Origin: Bdellovibrio bacteriovorus HD100
GTDB lineage: Bacteria > Bdellovibrionota > Bdellovibrionia > Bdellovibrionales > Bdellovibrionaceae
Assembly (NCBI RefSeq): GCF_000196175.1
Contig: NC_005363.1
Location: 1,302,001 to 1,366,000 of the forward strand
Length of the DNA stretch: 64,000 nucleotides
Direction of reading: 5' to 3'
Below the pieces are notes generated by a model. It was not told the origin of the DNA. It saw only the letters and a program-made list of their open reading frames with translations, and did no database searches. Below are positions 17,649 through 38,579 of this stretch, one piece after another. Both the position numbers and the translations under genes were made by a program. Position 1 is the stretch's first letter. Each line of letters starts with the position of its first letter.

Positions 17649-17713
17649 AGCCTTCCTTTGGCAGGTCGGCAGGACAGAAAGGGGCCTTTGGGATGAGCCG
17701 GATCTTTCTATTC

Positions 17714-17797
17714 TTGCTTCCCTGCGCGAGCATTATCTCTATCAGGTTCAAAGGGTTATTCTCAGTCGGTGAATTCACCAACACCCCTAGCGTCAGG
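17714..17797 (-). ncRNA. TPP (thi-box) riboswitch aptamer
   Basis: Read on the minus strand the segment shows the thi-box order: GGGGTG, a P3 stem formed by the palindrome GGTGAATTCACC, CTGAGAA, ACCCTTTGAACCTGAT, ATAATG and GCGCAGGGA. All conserved TPP-contacting blocks are present. About 65 nt separate the aptamer from the receptor start. In that gap there is a C/T-rich run that could mask the AAGGAAGG ribosome site and no evident U-tract, so control of translation is more likely than termination. Confidence 0.93.
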
Positions 17798-17912
17798 TCA
17801 GCGTTATGATTGAGGAGGCCGCCCAGGTCAAATTCTTTTTGGAAACAGCGGAGGTCGGGCGTTATTTTCATAAATTCCGCTTATTTCCACGAAGCCATGC
17901 TAAGCTTTATAT

Positions 17913-36700: not shown

Positions 36701-36821
36701 GTCGTGAAAATTACGATTGATCCCCCAGGTGGGGAATTTACTCTAAACCGCTTTAGCTCTATCAATGTCCTGCCGAAAAGTTATACGAAATAACCAAAAT
36801 AATTGAACGTAGGTGGTGGTT

Positions 36822-37091
36822 ATGAATACGGAGCTTGGCGCATTTGCGCTCAGGCAGGTGCTTGCCTCAACAGCAGTTCTTGGGCCGATCTTAATCCTGA
36901 TCGGACTCTGCTACTTCCTCTTTAACCAAAGCAGAAGAAGCGTGACCTTATACATAGGCACGGGGTTGATTCTGACCGTCATAGGAGTCACCTGTTTGTA
37001 CTCCGAACTTCGAAGCGAAGATTCGCGGGCTCACCATGAAGCAGCCATCGAACAGGTCGAAGTCATCGCGGAGGAAGCTGTTCGGAAGTAG
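36822..37091 (+). CDS. small membrane protein, two helices
   Basis: An 89-residue protein with two hydrophobic segments (VLASTAVLGPILILIGLCYFL and LYIGTGLILTVIGVTCLYS) joined by a short basic loop (NQSRRS), ending in an acidic helix. No family was recognised. AGGTGG at 36811-36816 favours the ATG at 36822 over GTG 36813. It directly precedes the inverted hairpin repeats. Confidence 0.65.
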   Translation: MNTELGAFALRQVLASTAVLGPILILIGLCYFLFNQSRRSVTLYIGTGLILTVIGVTCLYSELRSEDSRAHHEAAIEQVEVIAEEAVRK

Positions 37092-37112
37092 CTTCTGAAT
37101 TGCTTGGTCCGT

Positions 37113-37280
37113 TTTGGCGCGGGGATTTGCTGGCGAACTTGGCCAGTCCCAGCGCTACGGGGGACGCCGTCCGGGCTCAGTTGTCGTTCGGCCCGCCGGG
37201 CCGAATGCGCGCCATCCAGGCGCCGACAAAGCCCCCTTCGCGCTGGCACTGTCCAAGCTCACCAGCAAACTTGCGTTGTC
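37113..37280 (+). repeat. hairpin repeat element, copy A
   Basis: Imperfect 29-bp inverted repeats (37126-37154 and 37241-37269, 25 of 29 matching) enclose a GC-rich core with an inner perfect hairpin (TTCGGCCC/GGGCCGAA, loop GCC, at 37186-37204) and a conserved core CCATCCAGGCGCCGACAAAG at 37212-37231. It begins just outside with a GCGCGGGG motif. Copy B, in the opposite orientation 130 bp on, has the same order of modules. No ORF is credible. The 37281-37399 spacer shows nothing recognisable. Confidence 0.7.
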
Positions 37281-37399
37281 CCAATCAATTCAGAAACAAC
37301 TTCCGAAAATCCCATCACAAAGACATCGGTTCCAAAGGGCATCGTCGTGCACCTGCGCAGTTAAGAACACATTGATAGTTATTAGCTATTTCCGACTGG

Positions 37400-37522
37400 A
37401 ACAATTTGGATGGGGACTTGAGGGAGCCCGACGCAGCGGTCTTTGCCGGCGCCTGGATGGTGTACCGCGGAGGCGGGATCCCTCAAGACCCCAGCCAAAC
37501 CCCGCGCCACCCGGCAACGAAC
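37400..37522 (-). repeat. hairpin repeat element, copy B (inverted)
   Basis: 21-bp inverted repeats (37405-37425 and 37479-37499, 19 of 21 matching) enclose the same core as copy A, read on the minus strand as CCATCCAGGCGCCGGCAAAG, and the outer motif GGCGCGGGGTTTGGCTGG. It is shorter than copy A and lacks the inner TTCGGCCC hairpin. It lies 10 bp from the end of the binding-protein gene, so it could also end that transcript. Confidence 0.7.
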
Positions 37523-37532
37523 AAACCCACAA

Positions 37533-38579
37533 TCAGTGAGTTTTAATTTCTGTCCAAGAGTCTTCGAAGAGTTTGTTTTTTTCGCCTTGGTCTTGGATTC
37601 GTTCCAGCTTCTTTAGAGTGGCTTCATCCGGGAACAGGGCGCGGTTGTTTTGCAGTTCTTTTGGCAGGGCGGCTTTGGTGTTTTTCAGGACCGGGCCTCC
37701 CAAGATTGTTTTTACGCGGTTGATCTCTGCCTGTTCGCTTAGCAGGAAGTTGATCAGCTTGTGGGCGGCTTCGGGGTGTTTGGCGCCTTTGATGATGACC
37801 AGGTTGTCGATGGCGAATGTTCCGCCCTCTTCCGGGATGATGTATTCGATTTTGCCAGGGGACTTGTCTGCTGCTTGAAGGGCGTCAGAGGAATAGGTCT
37901 GGGCCGCGGCGACTTCTTTGTTGTTCAGGATGTCGATGGTGTCGGACGCAAACATCTTTACGTTCTTTTTTGCTTTCAGCAACGTGGCCTTGGCCTTGTT
38001 GATTTCTTCCGGGTTGGTGCTGTTCACGCTGAAGCCGTTCATTTTCAGTGCGGCACCCAGGGTTTCGCGCACGTCATCCAAAAGGGCGAATTTGCCTTTC
38101 AGTTGCGGATTTTCCAGAAGGTCTTTCCAGCTTTTGATCGGGCCTTTGTAAAGGTCGCGATTGACGGCGATGCCTGCGGTTGTCCAAATGTAAGGCAAAG
38201 AGAACTTGTTCTCTGGATCGTAGTTCTGTTTCAGGAACTGAGGATCAATCAGAGTTTTGTTTGAAATCTGATCTGGGTTCAGTGCTTCCAGCAGATTCAT
38301 CTTGGACATGACTTCGACCATATAGTCCGAAGGCACGGCCACGTCGATGCCCGAAGAGCCCATTTGCACCTTGGCCAGCAATTCTTCATTCGAGGAATAG
38401 TTGGAAATATTGATCTTGATGCCGGTTTCTTTCTCGAACTGAGCCTGCAGTTCCGGAGAGATATAATTGCCCCAGATGGACAGGTTGACTTCTTTGGCTT
38501 CAGAAACTTCAGCAGACTTCTTTGTACATCCCGCCAGCAGCCCACAAAGAGCCAGGCCGACCATCAATATTCTCGACAT
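37533..38579 (-). CDS. potD: polyamine-type ABC transporter substrate-binding lipoprotein
   Basis: A 348-residue lipoprotein (lipobox LAGC, Cys18) of the PotD/PotF spermidine-putrescine binding family: LSIWGNYISPEL, SNEELLAKVQMGSSGIDVAVPSDY, the PYIWTTAGIAVNRD hinge and IPEEGGTFAIDNLVI. It delivers substrate to the permease encoded on the other strand. The gene is divergent from the ATPase gene, with only 29 bp between the start codons, so at least one promoter must lie inside coding sequence. Substrate specificity between spermidine, putrescine and others cannot be read here. Confidence 0.88.
   Translation of the reverse strand: MSRILMVGLALCGLLAGCTKKSAEVSEAKEVNLSIWGNYISPELQAQFEKETGIKINISNYSSNEELLAKVQMGSSGIDVAVPSDYMVEVMSKMNLLEALNPDQISNKTLIDPQFLKQNYDPENKFSLPYIWTTAGIAVNRDLYKGPIKSWKDLLENPQLKGKFALLDDVRETLGAALKMNGFSVNSTNPEEINKAKATLLKAKKNVKMFASDTIDILNNKEVAAAQTYSSDALQAADKSPGKIEYIIPEEGGTFAIDNLVIIKGAKHPEAAHKLINFLLSEQAEINRVKTILGGPVLKNTKAALPKELQNNRALFPDEATLKKLERIQDQGEKNKLFEDSWTEIKTH

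Follow-up and report, generated by a model that had tools for sequence, protein, structure and literature searches.

Architecture of the facing hairpins

In Bdellovibrio bacteriovorus HD100, two long imperfect hairpins face each other between two convergent genes, raising the question of whether such a pair is a structured RNA, a mobile DNA element or a chance arrangement. The window analysed here is a 64,000-nucleotide stretch of the HD100 genome (NC_005363.1, positions 1,302,001 to 1,366,000, forward strand), and its relevant features are summarized in Table 1. The initial annotation had described two copies of a composite hairpin repeat in opposite orientation, a description that is borne out: the arms, the inverted core common to both copies (37212-37240/37432-37460, 86%) and the inverted outer motif GCGCGGGG were all located. 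In copy A, pairing of the inner arms starts at about position 37125 and runs inward, and an outer arm pair that had been overlooked (37081-37107/37281-37307) extends over 27 nt at 89%. The left outer arm overlaps the final codons and stop codon of the upstream gene; this contiguous arm crossing the stop codon is the sole claim of inverted coding sequence made for the window. In the sister genome G008, the far arm of copy A additionally repeats TGTTCGGAAGTAG. The arms of copy B (37405-37440/37464-37499) are 83% complementary over 36 nt. At the position of the outer motif, the opposite arm has a different sequence in nearly all copies.

Table 1. Features of the palindromic locus, in window coordinates
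Feature	Position	Strand	Basis or remark
Copy A, whole palindrome including outer arms	37081..37307	+	Arm matching, folding
Copy A, conserved T-shaped core (P1, P2 hairpin with loop RTCCG, P3, P4, P5 hairpin)	37159..37236	+	Covariance model R1, 86.5 bits, E 1.7e-13
Copy A, outer motif GCGCGGGG, ATTTG next	37117..37124	+	On one arm only
Copy B, opposite orientation, 47-bp internal deletion between P2 and P5 hairpins	37405..37499	-	G008 orthologue L136 intact
Copy B, outer motif GCGCGGGG	37500..37507	-	Inverted relative to that of copy A
Spacer separating the facing copies	37308..37404	.	Belongs to the insert (missing at the empty site)
Upstream gene, 89-aa putative two-helix membrane protein	36822..37091	+	Stop codon abuts copy A
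Convergent gene, extracellular solute-binding protein (PotD-like)	37533..38579	-	End abuts copy B
APsRNA6 transcript	36787..37441	+	Published coordinates shifted by window start

Folding of copy A gave -86 kcal/mol (z -4.2), with none of 200 shuffles as good, while copy B, which has lost part of the core, reached -54 (z -1.9), with 7 of 200 shuffles as good. In G008 it is copy B that is intact and copy A that is deleted between P2 and P5, the reverse of HD100, and the two deletions are independent. This swap of the deletion state implies that the core previously seen in copy B is a fusion left by the P2-P5 deletion. Of the 24 Bdellovibrio genomes, 22 keep the 89-aa upstream protein, whose helices were judged from sequence, and 15 have the convergent gene for the solute-binding protein.

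A dispersed family of T-shaped palindromes

The HD100 genome, a single contig of 3,782,950 bp, served as search space. The exact 13-mer CATCCAGGCGCCG occurs just twice in it, so that a search by sequence alone would suggest no more copies, and sequence-only genome searches returned weak partial matches and nothing more. These weak matches, combined with the motif CGCCRTCCGGGCTC, gave further copies that have the same core and long outer stems unlike in sequence. For family searches, a covariance model of the core was used, capturing structure as well as sequence. The genome-wide count proposed in the initial annotation yielded 14 copies in HD100 with this model (E 2e-14 to 0.012), and the repeat is thus not confined to the window. 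Copies were found in 26 of 66 family genomes, namely 22 of the 24 Bdellovibrio genomes and 4 genomes of other genera, with 3 to 31 copies in each Bdellovibrio genome that has the element and a few in the other genera. In the core, of about 76 nt, a long stem P1 bears the small hairpin P2 as well as stem P3, which in turn holds hairpins P4 and P5; the unpaired residues of the core are kept and its helices are variable.

Comparison with Rfam, at gathering and at relaxed thresholds, left the element unmatched, the sole matches being TPP and SRP RNA. The former is an ordinary TPP riboswitch (RF00059) at window positions 17702-17798 on the reverse strand. A scan of viral contigs with the core pattern gave no match, and a strict core pattern run over the genome collection found three Bdellovibrio stretches. 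Pattern matches in Azotobacter, Hyphomonadaceae and Acidimicrobiaceae lacked the fold and were treated as chance. In three genomes of other genera (G035, G037 and G038), 1300-2300 first-look candidates were seen, among which a more divergent and more numerous form of the element may be concealed. Copy number, covariation and genus-wide presence exclude chance as the source of the window hairpins, which are members of a Bdellovibrio family of T-shaped palindromes not previously described within the searches made. A genus-wide repeat family in a model predatory bacterium, absent from Rfam and from the literature searched, is thereby added.

Coordinated evolution of the arms

The initial annotation had also supposed that structure is kept while sequence drifts, and had asked for covarying stem positions; an alignment of the dispersed intergenic copies confirmed both. 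Across the base pairs of 112 distinct cores, 577 cells were changed on both sides and only 5 on one side (wobble), against 0 of 500 shuffles. SRP RNA of the same genomes gave about 27 one-sided changes and no more than 8 double ones, a comparison in which SRP RNA is less diverged than the cores and in which L282, apparently taken on the wrong strand, is the source of several double-change cells.

Orthologous copies illustrate how such changes arise. Between L103 and L080 (orthologues in G004 and G007), the flanks are 97% identical and the left arms identical, whereas the right arm matches the left near-perfectly over the inner 30 bases in L080 and does not in L103. Between L147 and L105, with flanks 96% identical, the arm has changed at 9 of 46 positions, with mirror-image changes in its partner arm. 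In L071, L075/L125 and L143, the far side contains an inverted copy, 149-305 bp long, of the end of the neighbouring gene. A ranking test for inverted coding sequence under free alignment was weak overall (6 of 86 elements ranked first, the window copy 14th), and the signal is clear at about four independent loci. Furthermore, G-C and T-A pairs, read from the 5' arm, are in excess in 91 of 108 elements, an asymmetry expected from intrastrand template switching (PMC8794818).

Taken together, the excess of double changes, the rewriting of one arm in orthologues, the inverted copies of coding sequence and the 5'-arm asymmetry point to copying at the DNA level, by which the arms apparently change together. 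Where both arms change, template switching alone supplies no new sequence, and copies may also have to exchange sequence with one another. Strong covariation, usually read as proof of a functional RNA, here seems to reflect largely DNA arms copying each other, and the compensatory changes of this element should not be taken as such proof.

Strand polarity and transcription

The mismatches that interrupt the stems are distributed unequally between the strands. On the gene-sense strand they are pyrimidine-pyrimidine and A.C, and on the other strand purine-purine and G.T; sense-strand counts were 171 versus 9 in favour of pyrimidine-pyrimidine, and 90 A.C versus 23 G.T. Scored by element, polarity favoured folding of the antisense strand in 85 cases versus 10, and this strand was the more stable in 101 of 112 elements when DNA energies were used and in 77 of the 112 under RNA energies. 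Such polarity speaks against an element working as sense RNA and fits folded single-stranded DNA, although antisense RNA or strand-biased repair could also produce it.

Transcription across the locus has been reported: APsRNA6 was mapped to the + strand of HD100 at 1,338,787-1,339,441 as an attack-phase-specific transcript with a FliA promoter (Karunker et al., PMC3627812 Table 2). It spans the 89-aa reading frame, passes through copy A and stops inside copy B. Because this frame is kept in nearly all Bdellovibrio genomes, the published "sRNA" is probably an mRNA.

These observations bear on the initial suggestion of an RNA-level element, in which the upstream gene's transcript would be stabilised or terminated by a hairpin within it and ordinary compensatory selection would keep the helices. 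Most copies do begin at stop codons in the sense orientation, attack-phase cells transcribe copy A within APsRNA6, and strong covariation accompanies conserved loops. However, sense-strand mismatches are not of the G.U type, wobble pairs are almost absent, unlike in SRP RNA, one arm is rewritten in orthologues, APsRNA6 reads through copy A and Rfam offers no match, so that the suggestion finds no support and a structured 3'-UTR element is considered unlikely. A transcription roadblock in antisense orientation, folding in transcripts that arrive from the other side, stopping them and shielding the 3' ends of convergent genes, would agree with the polarity of the folded strand and with the passage of APsRNA6 through copy A, met in sense, and its 3' end at 37441 in the first arm of copy B, met in antisense. 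This argument draws on one transcript, whose end may be a drop of coverage in a hairpin, and co-directional genes flank many of the copies (36 in '++' versus 49 in '+-' context); in addition, the strands are better separated by DNA than by RNA energies, and the roadblock is accordingly given a low probability.

Placement, insertion and proposed mobility

The position check proposed earlier showed that copies often lie at gene 3' ends and between convergent genes. In 98 of 114 copies, a sense reading frame ends within 260 bp before the core, and in 65 of these 98 the core lies 41-75 bp past that end. The upstream genes look unrelated, and no common function was seen among them. Wherever two cores occur less than 1 kb apart, they face inward (17 of 17 loci, the window pair included). 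In G000 (C1:3606859-3607115; L068, L279), as well as in G005, G008 and G009, a copy also occurs about 80 bp upstream of the SRP RNA gene.

The window locus is empty in G009, G023, G004, G007 and others, where the convergent stop codons are 0-35 bp apart versus about 445 bp in HD100, and G011 likewise has empty sites at the positions of L148 and of the doublet L151. The elements at these three loci are therefore insertions. In G010, a genome more distant than the element-free relatives, an element (L119) lies between the same two convergent genes, reflecting either a separate insertion at this site or more than one loss. Several element loci are common to distant species, which also fits old insertions kept for function.

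Among Y1/RAYT and IS1-like transposases, the candidates examined, no mobilising enzyme of general role was found. Assignment to the REP elements of a RAYT (TnpA_REP) system would account for dispersed palindromes at gene 3' ends and for REPIN-like inward-facing doublets, and Y1 transposase genes are present in 21 of 24 Bdellovibrio genomes. A Y1_Tnp (PF01797) match is nevertheless absent from G003, G013 and G016, which have 15, 6 and 11 copies, respectively; among the matches listed, no element adjoins a Y1 gene, the sole neighbour lying about 1.8 kb away in G014; and the units, which measure about 170 bp or more and have a core of three hairpins, are not 20-40 bp REPs. This assignment is thus quite improbable, and the earlier label "REP-like or MITE-like" stands as a description but not in the sense of a classical REP with its HUH/RAYT transposase.

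An origin as passenger part of an IS1-like insertion sequence is suggested by three copies in G003 (L241, L242 and L245) that sit inside related IS1-like units, one of which (L242) shows a 9-bp target duplication, TAAAGAATC. This duplication belongs to the IS1-like carrier; for the palindrome itself, no such duplication was established. The IS1-like units have a degenerate transposase, and the remaining three copies analysed in G003 (L243, L244 and L246) have the palindrome in common but no IS-like flank. The IS1-like transposase was therefore rejected as a general partner, and the passenger reading is very improbable. Rather improbable, too, is a reading with a new kind of mobiliser, in which each inward-facing doublet would supply a non-autonomous element with its two terminal T-shaped hairpins, the element would travel as single-stranded DNA with hairpin ends, and fold-back synthesis would copy neighbouring gene ends into the far arm. 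Doublets read in this way resemble parvovirus terminal repeats in overall shape only.

The explanation we favour, with somewhat better than even confidence, is a family of non-autonomous mobile palindromic DNA elements, REPIN-like in habit, that acts as folded single-stranded DNA and whose arms are matched by template switching. The unit comprises the conserved T-shaped core and the long arms, and inserts just past stop codons singly or as an inward-facing doublet, as copies, positions and empty sites show. Judging from the mismatch polarity, its active form is probably a single DNA strand folded antisense to the neighbouring gene. During DNA synthesis, one arm would serve as template for the other (quasi-palindrome template switching), allowing fast change with complementarity kept, and in some copies this switching may have overrun the element and copied the 3' end of the neighbouring gene in inverted form. 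Template switching can be put to the test at a dozen or more sites in a single genome.

Comparison with known systems

REP and REPIN sequences with their RAYTs are the closest in habit, sharing dispersed extragenic palindromes, singlets and inverted doublets, location at gene 3' ends and a suspected strand-specific folding. The Bdellovibrio element differs in its larger three-hairpin T core, in its arms of 20-90 bp of private sequence and in its occurrence without a Y1 transposase. Instead of a 20-40 bp hairpin with a GTAG or CGTC tag, the copies compared have a core of about 76 nt and GCGCGGGGATTTG as their recurrent outer motif. MITEs and ERIC-like imperfect palindromes are likewise non-coding, intergenic and provided with long inverted arms, and the presence/absence polymorphism with empty sites that marks MITEs is seen here; however, conservation in the Bdellovibrio element is limited to the centre and short outer motifs, and its arms do not form a conserved terminal sequence.

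Integron attC sites lie directly 3' of genes, favour the folded antisense strand and keep structure over sequence. Compared with them, the Bdellovibrio element differs in being conserved at the apex rather than at the base and in being scattered over the chromosome. The wobble-tolerant covariation on the transcribed strand expected of a structured RNA family was not observed. Template-switch hairpins show the same multi-base changes mirrored in both arms and an excess of G-C/U-A by 5' base (PMC8794818). Those hairpins were studied in RNA genes, whereas the Bdellovibrio case concerns dispersed repeats, a few loci of which contain the inverted coding sequence of a neighbour.
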